This document shows positions 15,440-33,568 of a stretch of 37,002 nt of DNA, piece after piece; position 1 is the stretch's first letter; each line of letters begins with the position of its first letter. The notes beneath the pieces were generated by a model, which saw nothing but the letters and a program-made list of their open reading frames with translations, was not told where the DNA came from and did no database searches. Source of the DNA: a virus. Both the position numbers and the translations under genes were made by a program. Location: positions 1 to 37,002 of IMG/VR virus record IMGVR_UViG_3300009159_006001; one strand, 5' to 3'.

Positions 15440-16243
15440 TTAGTTTTCCGACTTGTTTAACACCCACTTTGGGCATGAAAGAGTTTGCGTAGTTGTCGGA
15501 TACGCAGGCCACTTGTCCAGTGCCTGGCATTCGTGCAACAACGTGATCGCCTTGCGCCGCATATTCTCGCCGGCCTGCAACCATTCCGAGTCGAGACGAT
15601 AGACCCCGACAGCGTATGGAGCGGTGCGCTCGACAGCGACAAAAGCGAAATGATCGGCACCGGTCATAGCCAAGTAATGCGCCGCTTGGATATGGTATCC
15701 AAAGTTCAGGACGGTACGAGTGAATGCTTCAGGTGAAGCGTCATCGGTTGTCTTGATGTCGACGACGGTATGGTCCTCCACCCACAGATCAGGACGAGCC
15801 TTGATCGCGATATCGGTATCCGCGTCCAGCCCGAACACGCTCGCCTCGATGCGATGAGGAGCTTGGTAGATGGACCAGAATGGATGACTGCGGATCGAGC
15901 GAGCAACACCCTGCACATCGCGGTTCTCCGTATTGTTGAGACAGATGCGGTCCTTGTTAGCGTCCTTCCACGCTTTGCCCTCCTTGGTGCGTCCGTCGAT
16001 ACCATCGGGGGTCACGGCCACAACATCGGTGTACAGGTCAGGCTCCAAGACAGCGGTGTGGATGGCAGTGCCAAGTTGCATCGCCTTCGACGGCTCTTGG
16101 CGCTCCTCCTGTGCGGCTCGATAATGGGCAGGCGATTTCAGCAGCTTGGCCATCATCGACTTCGATAGAGCCTGGACCGCGTGATACTTCTCTGCCGGCA
16201 TTGTTTCATTGATGATCCGACCGACGACTGTGTGATGGTTCAT
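15440..16243 (-). CDS. RecE-like PD-(D/E)XK exonuclease
   Basis: The 267-residue protein matches the nuclease domain of RecE/exonuclease VIII and phage relatives. A start with ALSKSMMAKLLKSPAHYRA is followed by MQLGTAIHTAVLEP (55-68), an RIEASVFG strand (E133), ARPDLW (149-154) and the core VVDIKTTDD (D162, K164). These give a PD-(D/E)XK site that needs Mg2+ to digest one strand of duplex ends. The product would feed single strands to the RecT-like partner, whose stop overlaps this start (ATGA at 16243). AAAGGAG stands about four bases before the ATG, one of the few clear ribosome sites in the operon. Confidence 0.8.
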   Translation of the reverse strand: MNHHTVVGRIINETMPAEKYHAVQALSKSMMAKLLKSPAHYRAAQEERQEPSKAMQLGTAIHTAVLEPDLYTDVVAVTPDGIDGRTKEGKAWKDANKDRICLNNTENRDVQGVARSIRSHPFWSIYQAPHRIEASVFGLDADTDIAIKARPDLWVEDHTVVDIKTTDDASPEAFTRTVLNFGYHIQAAHYLAMTGADHFAFVAVERTAPYAVGVYRLDSEWLQAGENMRRKAITLLHECQALDKWPAYPTTTQTLSCPKWVLNKSEN

Positions 16244-17073
16244 TGTGCTCCTTTCGATTCCGCAGAAAACGAATACGCCTTCTTGATGAATCCATCTGCG
16301 TCACAGACAATCATCGATGCAACCTTTGAAGATACGTCCCTGAAGTTCTGGCCCTCGTTGATGAGGTTCTTGTAGATCAAGAATCTGTTCGCTATTTCCG
16401 CATGTTCTTCGAGGATGATTTCCAGCTTATCGACCAGTGTGTACTGGTTGACGGTGGCGGATGGAGCGACCGGTTGAACCGTTACCGCAGGAATCGATTG
16501 TGCCGGCAATGGACTACCACTGAAGTCGGCCACCTCCTCCGGTGTGTATCGACCTTGGGTGATGCGCGGATCCAGCATACGTGTCGCTTTGCTGATGACG
16601 CGCGCACGCAGCATCTCGGCGGGGAACTTGGCCCACCCGCTACCAGGCTTTGCCGGCAACATCCCGGCGAGCTTCGCATCAGCCGCAGTGAACTCGACCC
16701 GGACCTTCTTGGTTCCTTTAGAGAGGTCGGCAATCGCTGCGGTCGCATCGAACTGAATCCAGTCGATGTCCCATCCCGCGTTCATCATCCCAGCGAGCAT
16801 TGCCTCGCTCTTCATCGTGATATTGCCGTTGATGAGGTGATTCTGCGTCTTCCAAGCCAAAGGAGTCTGCCTGTTCGCCAAGCATTCCAGAGCGAGGACA
16901 TATCCCTGTTCCGGTTTGACGCATCCGAACATTCCGCTATGGGCAATCCAATCGCCCATCGTCTTCACCGCATCGAGCGGCGAGTTAATCCTGTCGTAGA
17001 ACGTCGTCGCGTCAGATGGGCTGACCGTCAACGGTTGCTGAACTGTCACTGTGTAGTCTGGGTTTGTGCTCAT
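16240..17073 (-). CDS. RecT-like single-strand annealing protein
   Basis: The 277-residue protein has the layout of the RecT/Bet class: a helical start, GYVLALECLANRQTPL and a typical late block WAKFPAEMLRARVISKATRM, then GRYTPEEVADF. The following 40 residues are Pro/Val-rich linker and the C-terminal 70 are helical. These proteins form rings on single-stranded DNA and pair complementary strands. The RecE-like gene follows by ATGA overlap, the classic order for a two-gene recombination system. The HTH gene overlaps its start by about 60 bases. Family subtype (RecT or Bet) cannot be decided by eye. Confidence 0.7.
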   Translation of the reverse strand: MSTNPDYTVTVQQPLTVSPSDATTFYDRINSPLDAVKTMGDWIAHSGMFGCVKPEQGYVLALECLANRQTPLAWKTQNHLINGNITMKSEAMLAGMMNAGWDIDWIQFDATAAIADLSKGTKKVRVEFTAADAKLAGMLPAKPGSGWAKFPAEMLRARVISKATRMLDPRITQGRYTPEEVADFSGSPLPAQSIPAVTVQPVAPSATVNQYTLVDKLEIILEEHAEIANRFLIYKNLINEGQNFRDVSSKVASMIVCDADGFIKKAYSFSAESKGAQ

Positions 17074-18886: not shown

Positions 18887-19089
18887 TCGTCGAAAGAAAG
18901 TGTCGGTCTGTTGCGGAGATAGCTTTGGTCGTATTCAGGAGCGCGCTCTATCGAAAGGGGTGGCCAACCTTCCGAGTCCAAAACCTTCCACGCTTTGAAT
19001 TTTGCTTTTGATTCTGTCACCGCAAAAACAATGAGCTTGATCCCGTACACAGATTTGACGCGCCAGGCAATCGGCTCGGGGGTGTTCAT
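18883..19089 (-). CDS. Small unknown protein, 68 aa
   Basis: The start is ATG 19089 (MNTPEPIAWRVKSVYGIKL), which overlaps the MTase stop by ATGA. The protein has a beta-rich core (KLIVFAVTESKAKFKAWKVL) and an end rich in Pro, Tyr and Asp. No family recognised. It is flanked by coupled genes on both sides. Confidence 0.55.
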   Translation of the reverse strand: MNTPEPIAWRVKSVYGIKLIVFAVTESKAKFKAWKVLDSEGWPPLSIERAPEYDQSYLRNRPTLSFDE

Positions 19090-19730
19090 AGAGATTGTTC
19101 CATCGAGTAGATCACGTCCGCCCACAATTGCCAGGGAACGACAGCACGCTCCGCCGATCCACCTTTTCCCTGAGTCCCGGTCCTCGCTCCTCTCGGCGCT
19201 GCATCGTGATCAGGATGTCCGTTGCAACACATCGGCCTAGGAATCCATCCCGGAACATTACCCCACAGGTCCGTCGGTTTCATCGATGTATCGCCGTACC
19301 GACAATACGTGACTGTCTGCATCGGGATTCCTTGCACACAGGGTAGTTTCCGCAACACACCACGAGGGTTCTCCATGATCCAGCCACGCGGATTCATCCA
19401 CGAGATGAATCTCAAGGTCGCCACGACAAGCTCCTGGCTCAAACGAGCTTCTGTCGTTTTCGGAACATACGCCCCTTTTCCACCGGTCCAGTGATGTCCA
19501 ATCGATGCGACAGAGAACGCCTCGCACGGCGGTGACGCCCAGATGAGGTCGAAATACCCGTTGTGATACATGAACTCCGCCGGAACGAGGGCAACGGCCA
19601 ACATGTCCGCAGTCAGATTGCACCCGAACCTCGGGTCCAGATCGAGCGTGACGTACGTGTGACCACGCGCCTCGATGCGCGCCCGTCTCCGCTCTCCACC
19701 CGCGCCCGCGTACAGATCGAGTATCCTCAC
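19086..19730 (-). CDS. DNA cytosine-5 methyltransferase, second copy
   Basis: I place the start at GTG 19730: a strong GGGGAGGGAG lies four bases before it, and translation begins VRILDLYAGAGGERR, the C5-MTase motif I with no spare N-terminus. Catalytic motif IV is ASPPCEAFSVAS (Cys69) and the ENP motif is IMENPRGVL (118-126). The 214-residue length suits a minimal phage enzyme. It differs clearly from the MTase at 7608-8381, so the two probably have different targets or roles. The GTG overlaps the stop of a short zinc-ribbon gene (GTGA). The longer frame upstream runs through a repeat and is rejected. Confidence 0.8.
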   Translation of the reverse strand: MRILDLYAGAGGERRRARIEARGHTYVTLDLDPRFGCNLTADMLAVALVPAEFMYHNGYFDLIWASPPCEAFSVASIGHHWTGGKGAYVPKTTEARLSQELVVATLRFISWMNPRGWIMENPRGVLRKLPCVQGIPMQTVTYCRYGDTSMKPTDLWGNVPGWIPRPMCCNGHPDHDAAPRGARTGTQGKGGSAERAVVPWQLWADVIYSMEQSL

Positions 19731-19885
19731 AATACTCCCTCCCCATCGCACACCCGACAATATCGGCTCCCGATACCACGACACGCAGGACACGGTCGCC
19801 GATTGCATTCTCTCAAAAACATTGTTATACCAACAATGCTCAACAACCAACAGATACCAATTATAATGTATATGTATGCGCTCAT
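19727..19885 (-). CDS. Membrane-anchored double CxxCxGxG zinc-ribbon microprotein, 52 aa
   Basis: The ATG at 19885 opens MSAYIYIIIGICWLLSIVGI, a single hydrophobic segment (about residues 3-24), followed by basic residues and PCPACRGIGSRYCRVCDGEG. The two CxxCxGxG motifs (residues 32-39 and 43-50) are those of DnaJ-type zinc domains. The TGA overlaps the MTase GTG (GTGA), and the ribosome site for the MTase lies within its last codons, so the two are probably coupled. The reading is exact and clearly protein-like. What it binds is unknown; a zinc-dependent membrane adaptor is a guess. Confidence 0.65.
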   Translation of the reverse strand: MSAYIYIIIGICWLLSIVGITMFLRECNRRPCPACRGIGSRYCRVCDGEGVL

Positions 19886-19933
19886 TGTATAAATAGGCCA
19901 CCACTAACGCAGGTTGCCAAGTCTCGATTTTGT

Positions 19934-20068
19934 TTATGTCACCCTCGCCCTCGACCTCGAACACGACCACGACCACGACCCCGACCCCGCCCACGATCCC
20001 GACCCCGACCTCGACCACGTCCTCGACCACGACCACGACCATCCGGCGCGCAGCATTGTGGCGTTCAT
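19934..20068 (-). CDS. Ser/Trp/Gly repeat ORF, 44 aa (uncertain)
   Basis: ATG 20068 overlaps the stop of the gene upstream (ATGA), and TAA is at 19934. The predicted protein starts MNATMLRAGWSWSWSRTW and is almost wholly Ser alternating with Trp, Gly or Arg because it runs through a hexanucleotide repeat. The overlap argues for translation, but a DNA repeat can leave any frame open, and all minus frames are open here. One of the others gives Gly-Arg dipeptides. I rate it as possible only. Confidence 0.3.
   Translation of the reverse strand: MNATMLRAGWSWSWSRTWSRSGSGSWAGSGSWSWSCSRSRARVT
19944..20042. repeat. GGTCGN hexanucleotide repeat (minus reading)
   Basis: About 100 bases consist of degenerate six-base units; on the plus strand these read CGACCA or CGACCC with some changes. 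Unit drift and a few CGATCC variants show it is not a recent perfect expansion. It lies between the 104-residue gene and the zinc-ribbon gene. Minus-strand RNA would be very G-rich. Confidence 0.85.
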
Positions 20069-21596: not shown

Positions 21597-21615
21597 GATG
21601 ATGATGATGATGATG
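21594..21615. repeat. GAT/ATC trinucleotide run at a start codon
   Basis: Six GAT units on the plus strand (21597-21614) adjoin the start codon of the 83-residue gene. Slippage could change the leader length, but not the coding frame. Confidence 0.8.
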
Positions 21616-21628
21616 TATCCGCAGAATG

Positions 21629-21650
21629 CGCGCCGACCGAAACCGGCGCG
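21629..21650. repeat. Perfect 7-bp GC-rich hairpin
   Basis: CGCGCCG pairs with CGGCGCG around an eight-base loop. It lies just after the stop of the gene at 21664 (minus reading), like other post-stop hairpins nearby, and has no T-run. Confidence 0.55.
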
Positions 21651-21663
21651 TGGTTCTATGGAT

Positions 21664-21921
21664 TCAAATGATCTCGTTTAGTTTTTTGCTCGGGACCGGT
21701 TTACCAGTATCGCGATAATATGCGTACGCTTTATATTTATGACCACCGCTTTGCAAGCTCCTGCCATATCCGCAAAATGACAATTTAACTTTTCTTCCGC
21801 CATGATCCGCTTCCGGGAACACATCAAAACCAAAACAATTGTTTCTGAATTGAGCATGGACATAAGTCGAACCATACTTGCGCGATTGTTTAATATATCC
21901 GATGAATTGTGATACGTTCAT
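21664..21921 (-). CDS. Unknown protein, 85 aa
   Basis: The sequence begins MNVSQFIGYIKQSRKYGSTY and is rich in Tyr, Gly, Lys and aromatic residues (FRNNCFGFDVFPEAD, SFCGYGRSLQSGG, YKAYAYYRDTG). It has no signal peptide. No family recognised. It has slightly lower GC content than its neighbours, hinting at separate origin. A hairpin follows its stop. Confidence 0.5.
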   Translation of the reverse strand: MNVSQFIGYIKQSRKYGSTYVHAQFRNNCFGFDVFPEADHGGRKVKLSFCGYGRSLQSGGHKYKAYAYYRDTGKPVPSKKLNEII

Positions 21922-22385: not shown

Positions 22386-22583
22386 TTACTGCAAAAGCCT
22401 TGATTCCATTTCTGCGACGTCCGCCGAGATGCGCTCCGCAGAATATCCCCGAACGGGACGACCTGTGCGATTCGCTCGCTCCAAATCGGACCGCATCGTC
22501 GCAAGATTCTTGGCAAACTGTGCGCGGATTTGAACCTCGGTGCAGCACAGCACGCGGGCAAGGTGGGGGATGGTAGGTTTCAT
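22386..22583 (-). CDS. Small helical protein, possible DNA-binding, 65 aa
   Basis: The sequence reads MKPTIPHLARVLCCTEVQIR, then KNLATMRSDLERANRTGRP and a final helix. The first part could be a helix-turn-helix (LARVLCCTEVQIRAQF), which suggests a small regulator, but the fit is weak. It follows GNRA-hairpin copy 1 by 30-40 bases. Confidence 0.4.
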   Translation of the reverse strand: MKPTIPHLARVLCCTEVQIRAQFAKNLATMRSDLERANRTGRPVRGYSAERISADVAEMESRLLQ

Positions 22584-22623
22584 GTTTTTGATTATTGTTC
22601 TATGGTTTTGATCGGGAATGATT

Positions 22624-22686
22624 GCCCGCTAGGGTCCACCGTCACCGATGGACCCGCGCGGATGATCAAACAGCGCTGGTGATCGC
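22624..22686 (-). ncRNA. GNRA-loop hairpin element, copy 1
   Basis: On the minus strand a 9-bp stem (GGTCCATCG with CGGTGGACC) closes a GUGA loop at plus 22633-22654. It is flanked by a conserved GCGATCACCAGCGCTGTTTG (this also codes the end of the upstream gene) and by AGCGGGC. One G-U pair forms only in minus-strand RNA. Copy 2 lies at 22874-22936; see Findings. Confidence 0.6.
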
Positions 22687-22845
22687 CAGCGCCTGCGCGC
22701 ATAGCTCGGTAAAACGGGAATCCTGTTTTCTGCGATAATTCTCCTTTTCGTCTTCGGATTCAAATCCGCCGACAGGCAATGGAATTTCGAGGTCGACCTG
22801 TGCGGCTATTGCGTCGGTCTGGTCGTCGTTGTTTTTATATTTCAT
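22666..22845 (-). CDS. Small acidic protein, 59 aa, between duplicated RNA elements
   Basis: The ATG at 22845 begins MKYKNNDDQTDAIAAQVDLE; the rest is polar and helical, ending LAITSAV. Its last codons and stop lie inside a 31-bp repeat that also ends the 224-residue gene, so both proteins end AITSAV. The gene is bracketed by the two RNA elements and could be a movable or duplicated unit. Function unknown. Confidence 0.5.
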   Translation of the reverse strand: MKYKNNDDQTDAIAAQVDLEIPLPVGGFESEDEKENYRRKQDSRFTELCAQALAITSAV

Positions 22846-22873
22846 GTTGATGGTGTTTGAACCGGGCATGATC

Positions 22874-22936
22874 GCCCGCTACAGCCTACCGTTTCCGACA
22901 GGCTGGCGCGGATGATCAAACAGCGCTCGTGATCGC
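22874..22936 (-). ncRNA. GNRA-loop hairpin element, copy 2
   Basis: The second copy forms AGCCTGTCG with CGGTAGGCT around a GAAA loop (plus 22883-22904). Base changes relative to copy 1 keep the lower stem paired. The 31-bp flank (22906-22936) differs from copy 1 by one base. It follows the stop of the 224-residue gene. Confidence 0.6.
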
Positions 22937-23590
22937 TTCTACTTTCCGAGCCCCCGTTCCATGTGGCTTGAATCCGATGATGAAAGTGCGGTCACCTTTG
23001 GCGCAGAGTCTGCACGCATTGCACGAAATGCCAGCGACCCGTTGCGCCGGGCAAATCACAACTTTGTTTCCGGCCGGCGAAGTGAACCGATCCGGGCTGT
23101 TTTGCGGAACCACAGCCGCGACGGGCAGGCCGGTTTTTGCGAGCGTATCGGCATGAGAGATGGAGTTCGCCGAAAGGTTTACCACGAAACCGTCGCGATT
23201 AGCGGAACGGATCCTCCGCAAATTTGCGACGGTTGTAGGCTTATGCGTATACGTGAAACCGCGCCGGCCGGAGTTAGCTTTGGCAAGTTGCGCCAAAGCC
23301 ACACCGTCAATCGCGTCGCCATCACCGGGAAGATCACCGGCTTGGTTGTGACGCCATAGTTGGCCAGCGGCGAAGGAACGAACGACGTCAAGGAATTCGT
23401 TCCATTGCAGACCGCGAAGACCGTTGGTCACTTTGGACCAGTGAATCGCAAGCGGGCCGGATTTTGCGTAACAGCCGGACGCCTTGAACGGACAAGCGTC
23501 CGGACATGTTGCGGCGGATGAAGTAGAAACAGGGATCGGGCCTGTTTTGATGTTGGCGCTTTTAAGCGTGACGTGGGTGAGGTTTTGCAT
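22916..23590 (-). CDS. Conserved phage Cys-rich protein (DUF7227-like)
   Basis: I start at ATG 23590 (MQNLTHVTLKSANIKTGPIP), giving 224 residues. Ordered motifs are TCPDACPFKASGCYAKSGPL, LWRHNQAGDLPGDGDAID, GFTYTHKP, VNLSANSI..AD.L and VVICPAQ...CNACRLC. I recall these from a phage family annotated by a DUF number (DUF7227, from memory). The Cys clusters suggest metal or Fe-S binding, but no role is established. It is the first gene of the long minus operon, so it is probably made very early and may help take over the cell. Confidence 0.65.
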   Translation of the reverse strand: MQNLTHVTLKSANIKTGPIPVSTSSAATCPDACPFKASGCYAKSGPLAIHWSKVTNGLRGLQWNEFLDVVRSFAAGQLWRHNQAGDLPGDGDAIDGVALAQLAKANSGRRGFTYTHKPTTVANLRRIRSANRDGFVVNLSANSISHADTLAKTGLPVAAVVPQNSPDRFTSPAGNKVVICPAQRVAGISCNACRLCAKGDRTFIIGFKPHGTGARKVEAITSAV

Positions 23591-26486: not shown

Positions 26487-26510
26487 TCGGAACGGTATTG
26501 GTTGACACAG

Positions 26511-26545
26511 CCCATCATCGGCCGAAAGGCTGGTGGTGGGTTTTT
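26511..26545 (+). terminator. Rho-independent terminator after the capsid gene
   Basis: A 13-bp stem (CCCATCATCGGCC with GGCTGGTGGTGGG, some G-T pairs) closes a GAAA loop and is followed by TTTTT. It is a textbook terminator, 25 bases after the capsid stop. It would limit or modulate transcription into the genes downstream. Confidence 0.85.
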
Positions 26546-26583
26546 CGTATTGACATCATGTGGCATCAAGCAATGCTTCGTTC

Positions 26584-30107: not shown

Positions 30108-30123
30108 TCTATTCCAAGAAAAA

Positions 30124-30154
30124 CCCCCCGATTGTAATAAAAACAACCGGGGGG
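30124..30154. terminator. Bidirectional terminator between converging operons
   Basis: CCCCCCGATTGT pairs with ACAACCGGGGGG (one mismatch) around a 7-base loop. AAAAA lies before the stem (TTTTT on the minus strand), and TAATCGTTTT follows it. It separates the lysis operon (plus) from the scaffold gene (minus). Confidence 0.85.
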
Positions 30155-30170
30155 TAATCGTTTTAGAGTT

Positions 30171-31349: not shown

Positions 31350-31673
31350 TTAGTTTTTATCGTCAAAGGTCGCTTCAAGTTCTTTAGTGACATCAACTAC
31401 TGACAATTTTCGCAAATTTTCAAGACAATGTGCATAACCAGCGGTGATTCCAGCAGCAAAAACAATGTCTGACTCCTTGCTACCGTGAGATGGCATTGCA
31501 ATGGGCATGGACTCTGCAACGATGCGTAGAGCCATCCTGAGCACAGGATTCCGCATGATGAGCGCGAGTTCTGCCTGTTGTCCGTTGGTTATCCAGTCCG
31601 CGATATTTACGTCAGGCAGTTCCAGCAAGTTCTTCGGGTTCTCTTTCGTTAAGCCGCGCATCCAGTTTATCAT
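31350..31673 (-). CDS. Unknown protein between island and scaffold, 107 aa
   Basis: The protein begins MINWMRGLTKENPKNLLELP and is helical, with VNIADWITNGQQAELALIMR and PVLRMALRIVAESMPIAM. It overlaps the GH130-like gene's end by 62 bases; a start at ATG 31661 is also possible. In many phages a small helical protein precedes the scaffold, but no family is recognised. Confidence 0.5.
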   Translation of the reverse strand: MINWMRGLTKENPKNLLELPDVNIADWITNGQQAELALIMRNPVLRMALRIVAESMPIAMPSHGSKESDIVFAAGITAGYAHCLENLRKLSVVDVTKELEATFDDKN

Positions 31674-32955
31674 ATTTTGTGATCGTGTTACGTTTCAGTT
31701 TGTGTCTCTGAGGAATCGGGTCGAGAACGTCATCTAGTTTGATTGGTTTCTCGGGGGTGACGGTATCTCGTTTGGGCCGGATGATCTTGGTGATCTCCAG
31801 CATGTCGGCCAGTGGTAGCTTGATGTATCCGCAGTCAACATCGTTGATTCCATACGAAACAACGAACTGATTCTTTGAACTATCGTAGAACGCGCCGCAT
31901 GGAAAGACAACCGCAGGAAGTCCAGGCCACCAATCCTGTTGATTTGTTCCGGTAAGGATCGGAAGCGTGGTCATGCGAACGATGCGGAACGGAGCTTTGG
32001 CTTCAAAAGCGTATGCACCCATGTAATACCTACGCTTCTTGTTGATCCACGGGAGCGAGCTATGGAAGAAGGTCCAGTACAGGCCGTCCGCAAGGATCGG
32101 GTTGGAGCCGCCGCGCACTTCGCCGAACTTCCAAAGAGGATTGAACTCATCGGTCGAGTATTCCGTTTCCTTCTCTAACCGCCCATTGAGGCGCACAACG
32201 ACGTGTGGATTGGCAGAATATACCATGTGTGGCGTGTTATCGTGGACGAATAAAAGCCAGTTCTTTTCGTGTCCATCGTTCACCATCGCCTGGGACAAGT
32301 TGTTTCCATATACAGTATCGAACCGGCCCACGTTCAGGAACTGTTTGTCGAGCAGGAACATCGCCTGATGCGCGTATGACTTGAGCGGAATAAATGTGGC
32401 GCAGTTTATCCCGTACTTGTCTCCAAATTTGACCACGCGAGGGTCTTCAAACTGTTCGTTTGGATGTTGAGATGTCAGTTGGATCAACGCTTTCTTGGTC
32501 GCTCGAAGGTCTTTGCTGAGTTCAAAGACAACGATGTCGTTCTTCTCGACATACGTATCCTCATCCTTCTCGCGTTTGTTGCGGCATCGACGAGCAAACA
32601 AAAGAATCTTGCCGTCCGATTCTTGAAAGATGGCAGGATTGAAGTAGTACGTTCCGACTTCCTCCGGTAGAACAATCTTGCCGACCTCCCAATCCACTTG
32701 TTCAGCCAGCTTTGGAACGTCATTTTTTGCGTAGCTCATAAGAAATTCAGCAGCAAATTTGATTTCATCATAAAGAGACAGCCAATGGTCGCGCTCTTCG
32801 CGAACCTCTGTCAGGTGCTCTTCATTTTCAACCGCTCTCAATTCAAGTGTCTTGCGTAGATCTTCAATCTCCATCAACAAGTCAGCTTGACCATCTCCAC
32901 CATTTGCAAATCGTTTTAGAGCCTTTATGGAAAGGCTTCTGATGATGTCTTTCAT
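31612..32955 (-). CDS. GH130-like beta-propeller protein with N-terminal coiled coil
   Basis: Starting at ATG 32955 the protein has 447 residues. Residues about 10-80 form a coiled-coil or linker part (LLMEIEDLRKTLELRAVENE). From 100 a five-bladed propeller is suggested: YYFNPAIFQESDGKILLFAR, the family-type EDPR at 170-173 (NEQFEDPRVVKFGDKYGINC), LLFVHDNTPHMVYS, GEVRGGSNPILADGLYWTFFH and WWPGLPAVVFPCGAF. In GH130 the EDPR Asp acts in phosphorolysis or hydrolysis of beta-mannosides. Activity here is not proven, since phosphate-binding residues could not be checked. It is last in the glycan island, 13 bases after the GT25 stop. Confidence 0.6.
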   Translation of the reverse strand: MKDIIRSLSIKALKRFANGGDGQADLLMEIEDLRKTLELRAVENEEHLTEVREERDHWLSLYDEIKFAAEFLMSYAKNDVPKLAEQVDWEVGKIVLPEEVGTYYFNPAIFQESDGKILLFARRCRNKREKDEDTYVEKNDIVVFELSKDLRATKKALIQLTSQHPNEQFEDPRVVKFGDKYGINCATFIPLKSYAHQAMFLLDKQFLNVGRFDTVYGNNLSQAMVNDGHEKNWLLFVHDNTPHMVYSANPHVVVRLNGRLEKETEYSTDEFNPLWKFGEVRGGSNPILADGLYWTFFHSSLPWINKKRRYYMGAYAFEAKAPFRIVRMTTLPILTGTNQQDWWPGLPAVVFPCGAFYDSSKNQFVVSYGINDVDCGYIKLPLADMLEITKIIRPKRDTVTPEKPIKLDDVLDPIPQRHKLKRNTITKYDKLDARLNEREPEELAGTA

Positions 32956-32968
32956 TTTAATGCTCAAA

Positions 32969-33568
32969 TCAATCTGGAATCTCTGTGTCAAACTGGTCTG
33001 CAACCCTTGGGATAATTGAATAGGAATTCAGAAGATGCCTTGATTTGAAGAAAATCAGCAAATCAATTGGCGCGGAAATTTCAACCACCGTTTCGAGCAA
33101 CGTCTTCAACGCTTTTCGTCGCACCATGTACGCATGCGTGCAGAGCGGATGGCATCGATACAAAGCATTGCCAACCTTTTCACCGACACGGCCCTGGGTG
33201 CAGCATGACCCGACAAAAATCATGTCCCAATCTTTTGGAACTTCTTCCAGAGCGAGGTTGATGGATTCTTTCCATCCATCCCGAAGCATCACGTCATCTT
33301 CAAATATAAGCCAATGATCATTCTCATCTGACAGTTCAAGCGCGCTCCACAGCATGATGTGCGACATCGTGCAGCCGATATGCTTTGGTCCGATATGTTC
33401 TGATCCGCTTGGGTCGTCACCTGTATACGGGATGGTTGCTTTAAGACCGGACTTTGCTCCGTTGAACCCATAGAAAAACTTGAACTCTTGGACACCATAT
33501 CCCTTGAGCCTTTCCGTGACGGGTCCAATCCTCTCCGACCCCCGCTGCGTTATGACAATCGGTATCAT
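32969..33568 (-). CDS. Glycosyltransferase family 25-like
   Basis: The ATG 33568 overlaps the preceding stop (ATGA) and gives 199 residues starting MIPIVITQRGSERIGPVTER, the usual strand-loop of GT25/LPS glycosyltransferases. HIGCTMSHIMLWSALELS (63-80) and DHWLIFEDDVMLRDGW (84-99, EDD 90-92) are the diagnostic blocks. The family adds sugar residues to lipopolysaccharide or proteins, usually galactose from UDP-Gal. It probably decorates host-surface or virion glycans here. The size is short for the family (about 230-260) but the catalytic half is complete. Confidence 0.75.
   Translation of the reverse strand: MIPIVITQRGSERIGPVTERLKGYGVQEFKFFYGFNGAKSGLKATIPYTGDDPSGSEHIGPKHIGCTMSHIMLWSALELSDENDHWLIFEDDVMLRDGWKESINLALEEVPKDWDMIFVGSCCTQGRVGEKVGNALYRCHPLCTHAYMVRRKALKTLLETVVEISAPIDLLIFFKSRHLLNSYSIIPRVADQFDTEIPD

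Follow-up and report, generated by a model that had tools for sequence, protein, structure and literature searches.

At the gene junctions of phage modules that carry small accessory genes, a family of hairpins is found whose fold is selected as RNA, whose 5' base falls on the stop codon with which the upstream gene ends and whose geometry is nearly constant across sequence-distinct classes. Two of these hairpins, el1 and el2, lie on the minus strand of the window (the whole of the 37,002-base virus record IMGVR_UViG_3300009159_006001) and are one instance of this larger feature. Coordinates of the hairpins and of the genes around them are given in Table 1.

A hairpin family anchored on stop codons

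The initial annotation of this region had described two elements 250 bases apart with common flanks, and these are present as two 82-nt copies on the minus strand with 79% identity; a search of the window with the element at the DNA level gave no copies beyond el1 and el2. Folding of the minus strand gives the GUGA and GAAA loops that had been described, with z-scores of -3.70 and -3.35 for the two copies, and none of 200 dinucleotide shuffles folds as well as either. The compensatory changes are present, as GGGTCC/GGACCC in one copy and CAGCCT/AGGCTG in the other, and the wobble pairs fit the minus strand as had been proposed, the scores of the covariance model R1 on that strand being those listed in Table 1 and the score of el1 on the plus strand being 29.4 bits. 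The stem had been put at 9 bp, but the upper helix measures 10 bp, and because a further 9 bp in two helices, with 2x2 loops separating them, underlie it, the element is a hairpin of 50 nt and 19 bp. The folded unit of el1 and el2 is TGATC-AT-CCGC-GC-[10-bp stem]-GNRA-[10-bp stem]-TA-GCGG-GC-RATCA, and its plan is an imperfectly paired 5' arm of 11 nt, a small internal loop, the 10-bp upper helix and a tetraloop. Both upstream genes do end in AITSAV and a stop codon, as had been noticed, but the stop codon itself forms the stem's 5' base and is not just part of the flank.

A pattern scan in which CCGCGC/TAGCGG and the loop-proximal letters were fixed and the upper stem was left free found 18 further distinct copies in other viral contigs, and the scanned stretches with a complementary stem group as a clear family. 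In an alignment of 20 such class A sequences (A2), 97.4% of pair cells are standard pairs, both sides have changed at 9 of 19 pairs, and the covariation is 0.401 compared to 0.154 +/- 0.017 after shuffling, with none of 500 shuffles reaching the score of A2; when the structure is slid along the alignment, the covariation is at most 0.144. On the coding strand there are 41 G-U cells versus 5 A-C cells, and one U-G pair is invariant in 20 of 20 sequences. Selection on the structure of the minus-strand RNA, which had been claimed from two copies, is thus supported by many independent copies through the covariation of A2 and the excess of G-U pairs. R1, a covariance model across relatives of the kind that had been suggested as a check, finds further copies (mostly one to five per contig, clustered within ~2 kb) and scores the coding strand far above the complement. 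Broken stems, which the initial annotation had named as evidence to the contrary, did not occur in the relatives' copies that were examined. GNRA loops are common but are not obligatory, as UUCG, pentaloops and larger loops are also seen.

In 36 of 44 distinct R1 hits, position 1 of the model is exactly where an open frame of 45 or more codons reaches its in-frame stop, and the stop covaries with its partner in the stem (TGA/TCA, TAA/TTA, TAG/CTA). Class C hairpins (TGACCYATCCT...AGGGTAGGCCA), found in at least 120 contigs, are distinct in sequence from class A and have the same geometry; their alignment (A3), gathered independently of A2, has a covariation of 0.189 compared to 0.075 +/- 0.008, matched by none of 500 shuffles. 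The stop of the longest frame is at position 0 in 49 of 139 class C sites and at -2 in 24, the latter probably being long-stem variants with the anchor unchanged, and at the remaining sites it is mostly 4-15 nt upstream. Other junctions in the same modules bear hairpins of further classes, different in sequence and alike in plan.

Among stop-anchored hairpins of less than 80% identity, 10-bp helices that start 13-14 nt from the stop rise above a smooth background. In all 39 representatives (<80% identity) that were chosen on this geometry, the stretch from the 5' arm to where the apical helix ends measures 22-25 nt; 28 of them have a GNRA loop, and a few UNCG and various other loops make up the remainder. 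The number of stop-proximal hairpins is not raised (184 of 794 versus 492 of 2,382 in shuffles), and 71 of them are at offset 0 versus a background of ~8; it is just the position and the 10-bp helix that stand out. The stop is paired (P>0.6) in 29 of 94 gaps versus 20% of shuffles, so the signal is confined to a subset; many gene junctions of these genomes are without a hairpin, and some copies (part of class C, and TTATTTC copies) sit 4-16 nt past the stop. The most stable hairpin per gene end gave no positional peak because weak base pairs lengthened the stems.

Several variants were also observed. At L013:6581, L017:2905 and L051:1808, a class A hairpin is nested inside an outer stem, CCAGGA...TCCTGG, 16 nt past a TAA stop, and the TGA of its base is now TTA. 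A 58-nt stop-anchored hairpin at L075:2566-2623 on the minus strand combines the outer arms of class A with a longer, unrelated upper stem, in a contig that is otherwise unrelated.

Table 1. Hairpins, leaders and genes of the window referred to in the text
Feature	Positions	Strand	Basis or remark
el2, class A stop-anchored hairpin, GAAA loop	22869..22918	-	Opens with the TGA stop of the DUF7227 gene; R1 71.4 bits
el1, class A stop-anchored hairpin, GUGA loop	22619..22668	-	Opens with the TGA stop of the 67-aa (or 59-aa) gene; R1 68.6 bits
Third stop-anchored hairpin, sequence class H	21614..21666	-	Opens with the TGA stop of the 85-aa gene
DUF7227 / GP88-like gene, 224 aa from ATG, ends ...EAITSAV	22916..23590	-	Pfam PF23872, E=1e-89
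Small 67-aa gene between el2 and el1, ends ...LAITSAV	22666..22869	-	Sequence
Leader after el2, without Shine-Dalgarno sequence or T-tract	22846..22868	-	Sequence and leader statistics
Leader after el1, up to ATG of 65-aa gene	22584..22618	-	Sequence and leader statistics
65-aa gene downstream of el1	22386..22583	-	L003 homologue follows a different gene
85-aa gene, its stop opens the third hairpin	21664..21921	-	Sequence
RecT-like single-strand annealing protein	16240..17073	-	phrog_561, E=4e-8; Pfam RecT below cut-off
RecE / exonuclease VIII-like nuclease, DUF3799	15440..16243	-	phrog_412, E=2.6e-77

Leaders and gene exchange at the hairpins

The leader that follows the hairpin is 28 nt long on average in 61 stop-anchored hairpin genes, has a G content of 6.2%, and contains a Shine-Dalgarno-like 4-mer in none of the 61. 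The 8 nt following the stem hold a mean of 2.0 T and a maximum of 4. Between the stop and the next ATG there is no frame preference (26, 20 and 15 of 61). The frame of the next gene extends back to the stop without interruption in just 25 units, the last sense codon reappears in the leader frame in just 13, and no frame is conserved across the element. GGT is the final sense codon in 11 of the 61 genes. In the window (21597-21613), L003, L004 and L115, CATCATCATCAT microsatellites lie immediately 5' of module-gene starts in the place of a Shine-Dalgarno sequence. The homologue in L115 of the window's 67-aa gene, which has another C-terminus and a class H hairpin, suggests that the start of the 67-aa gene is the ATG at 22845.

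The modules contain small genes in varying order, as called by a simple script that may have placed single starts wrongly. L003 and L079 share no homology as far as the base that precedes TGA, and from TGA through the hairpin and leader they are ~90% identical; past the leader, 10-nt windows lose register through an indel, and the downstream protein is nearly identical. The tail of the DUF7227 gene (AITSAV) and its hairpin precede four different next genes in the window, L003, L081 and L115, the class H hairpin of the window has a counterpart in L115 that follows a different gene, and in 57 contig pairs the nucleotide homology spans the hairpin and leader only. Genes flanking the hairpin are exchanged, with breakpoints at the unit of hairpin and leader. 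The position of these breakpoints could merely reflect selection against broken genes and not a function of the hairpin; breakpoints cluster also at stops classed as hairpin-free, which are not a clean control because some of them are hairpins that the strict filter missed.

The simplest account of the AITSAV of the 67-aa gene is that it is a scar, this gene having received a copy of the DUF7227 tail along with the hairpin; that would explain why two genes have this ending in common without its being a feature of the proteins. The RecE-like and RecT-like proteins, together with the SSB whose gene is also in the window, could act on short homology. Elsewhere on the minus strand, low-complexity GTGGTCGTGG repeats at 19900-20042 form the Val/Glu/Gly-rich N-terminus of a putative DNA methyltransferase ORF (19086-20042), and this N-terminus is probably a wrong start or a repeat tract.

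Known systems and the proposed role of the hairpin

Searches with Rfam release 15 at gathering scores gave no matches in the window and in eight related loci, and a permissive Rfam search gave chance-level scores only. No named phage matched the element at the DNA level, and R1 had no hits in 274 genomes of one bacterial class. In 294 genomes of the phylum that holds the Planctomycetota locus L201, R1 gave seven single hits of 25-31 bits, which we attribute to chance in GC-rich DNA and treat as the floor; for that reason, R1 hits of less than ~32 bits count only where they have a stop anchor. R1 also had no hits in four named phages with a DUF7227 gene, and in two of them, CRP-345 and PAK_P1, the next gene starts within 4 nt, so the element is not intrinsic to the DUF7227 gene.

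The nearest relatives in kind appear to be four. The Extended Start Associated Sequences (ESAS) of Cluster K mycobacteriophages, the function of which is unproven (PMC3203893), are likewise imperfect inverted repeats between genes, attached to different gene families and restricted to the non-structural half of the genome, with a consensus that varies (between subclusters in ESAS), but ESAS go together with a 13-bp SAS where the ribosome binds, whereas the units here have neither an SAS nor a Shine-Dalgarno sequence at that position of the next gene, are anchored on the upstream stop codon, which belongs to the stem, and have a measured covariation. The PeSLs of T4-like phages (Arbiol 2010, Comeau 2014), compared here second-hand (PMC4503421), are likewise stem-loop cassettes that lie between small genes at places of gene shuffling; the present units differ from them in that no early promoter or terminator tail is found and the structure includes the stop codon. 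The RNase III site R1.1, which lies between genes 1.0 and 1.1 in the early mRNA of T7 and has 60 nt and an asymmetric 4/5 internal loop (PMC6121014), resembles the present hairpins in its intercistronic place, its size and the presence of an internal loop, but its loop is larger and asymmetric. In the E. coli galE mRNA, an intercistronic hairpin of the polycistronic message gives a stable upstream 3' end by blocking exonuclease (PMC11925234), but this is a single short stem ~120 nt past the stop and not a repeated family. None of the four appears to have been described with a stop codon in the base of the stem or with near-fixed geometry, as far as the cited accounts go, that of PeSLs being second-hand.

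The reading that we favour, with about an even chance of being correct, is that the hairpin is an mRNA 3'-end block or insulator joined to a leader and serves also as a boundary for gene exchange through the RecE/RecT-like system. A family of cis-acting hairpins would punctuate the polycistronic mRNA of the accessory-gene module, each unit consisting of a stop codon with a ~50-nt hairpin and then an unstructured, G-poor leader (~28 nt) that leads to the next ATG without a Shine-Dalgarno sequence. The hairpin would form after translation of the upstream gene and may act as a 3'-end block or insulator for that gene; it would then restrict 3'-5' decay and run-on by ribosomes and leave the leader accessible to initiation without a Shine-Dalgarno sequence. 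Because it contains both the end of the upstream gene and the signals with which the downstream gene starts, the unit would be a ready-made in-frame joint at which recombination by single-strand annealing could swap genes undamaged. How foreign genes arrive with correct ends and expression signals is rarely visible in phage accessory regions that often swap small genes; here the joint is visible as a folded RNA that combines the upstream stop with the downstream leader and is conserved while the genes change. The unit offers a testable link between mRNA processing and gene exchange, and two covariance models are available to find such modules in uncultured phages.

It is possible, though rather doubtful, that these near-fixed, two-turn, stop-anchored hairpins are an undescribed structured RNA that is read by a dedicated phage or host protein (a nuclease or a termination or recycling factor) and so defines both the mRNA ends and the exchange joints of the accessory module. 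The main rival to the favoured role is processing of the RNase III type, in which the hairpin, about two turns long and with ~11 nt before its internal loop, would be the substrate of a double-strand-specific nuclease whose cut separates the cistrons, as at the R-sites of T7. The geometry is compatible with a T7-type signal: size, intercistronic place, an internal loop between stems of about one turn, and constant geometry with variable sequence all resemble R1.1. The internal loops here are small (2x2 or 3x2), however, and the T7 sites are not described as stop-anchored in PMC6121014, and this reading is considered unlikely; such processing could coexist with a role as an mRNA 3' end or insulator.

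The composition of the leaders, without a T-run, Shine-Dalgarno sequence or frame preference, argues against terminators, bypassing and readthrough. Transcription terminators, or PeSL-like cassettes of terminator and promoter, would account for a stable stem at the gene end and for exchange boundaries of the kind proposed for PeSLs, but they are improbable: the T-run expected directly past the stem of an intrinsic terminator is absent, a scan gives no terminator at the elements, genuine-looking T-tailed hairpins sit elsewhere in the window, and sigma-70-like promoter sites, by a consensus that may not be the host's, are no commoner than in shuffles with none at the elements. Programmed bypassing or readthrough like that of T4 gene 60, in which translation stops at the base of a tetraloop hairpin and resumes in the next gene after a gap of ~50 nt (PMC11194080, PMC3014915), is superficially close to these units, with a stop codon in a hairpin of the take-off region and a 50-nt gap, but the frame and open-frame tests given above fail for them and make it very improbable. 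A recombination site that acts as folded DNA, like the single-stranded attC hairpin that is recognised by the cassette-moving recombinase of integrons, would fit arrays of small genes in the same orientation and variable order with a structurally conserved, sequence-variable hairpin after each. Little probability is given to such a site, as the R boxes RYYYAAC / GTTRRRY are present in 0 of 39 representatives in either orientation, a scan that covered part of the window's proteins gives no tyrosine recombinase, the stem incorporates the stop codon, G-U pairing is conserved on the coding strand, and RecE/RecT-like annealing can account for the exchange.

Two further regions of the window were noted. 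Strong T-tailed hairpins at ~26487-26565 and 30108-30170 lie between convergent genes and are ordinary bidirectional terminators, unlike the stop-anchored hairpins. A Glyco_hydro_130-like protein (Pfam E=2e-9) is encoded at 31612-33003 on the minus strand, close to structural genes.
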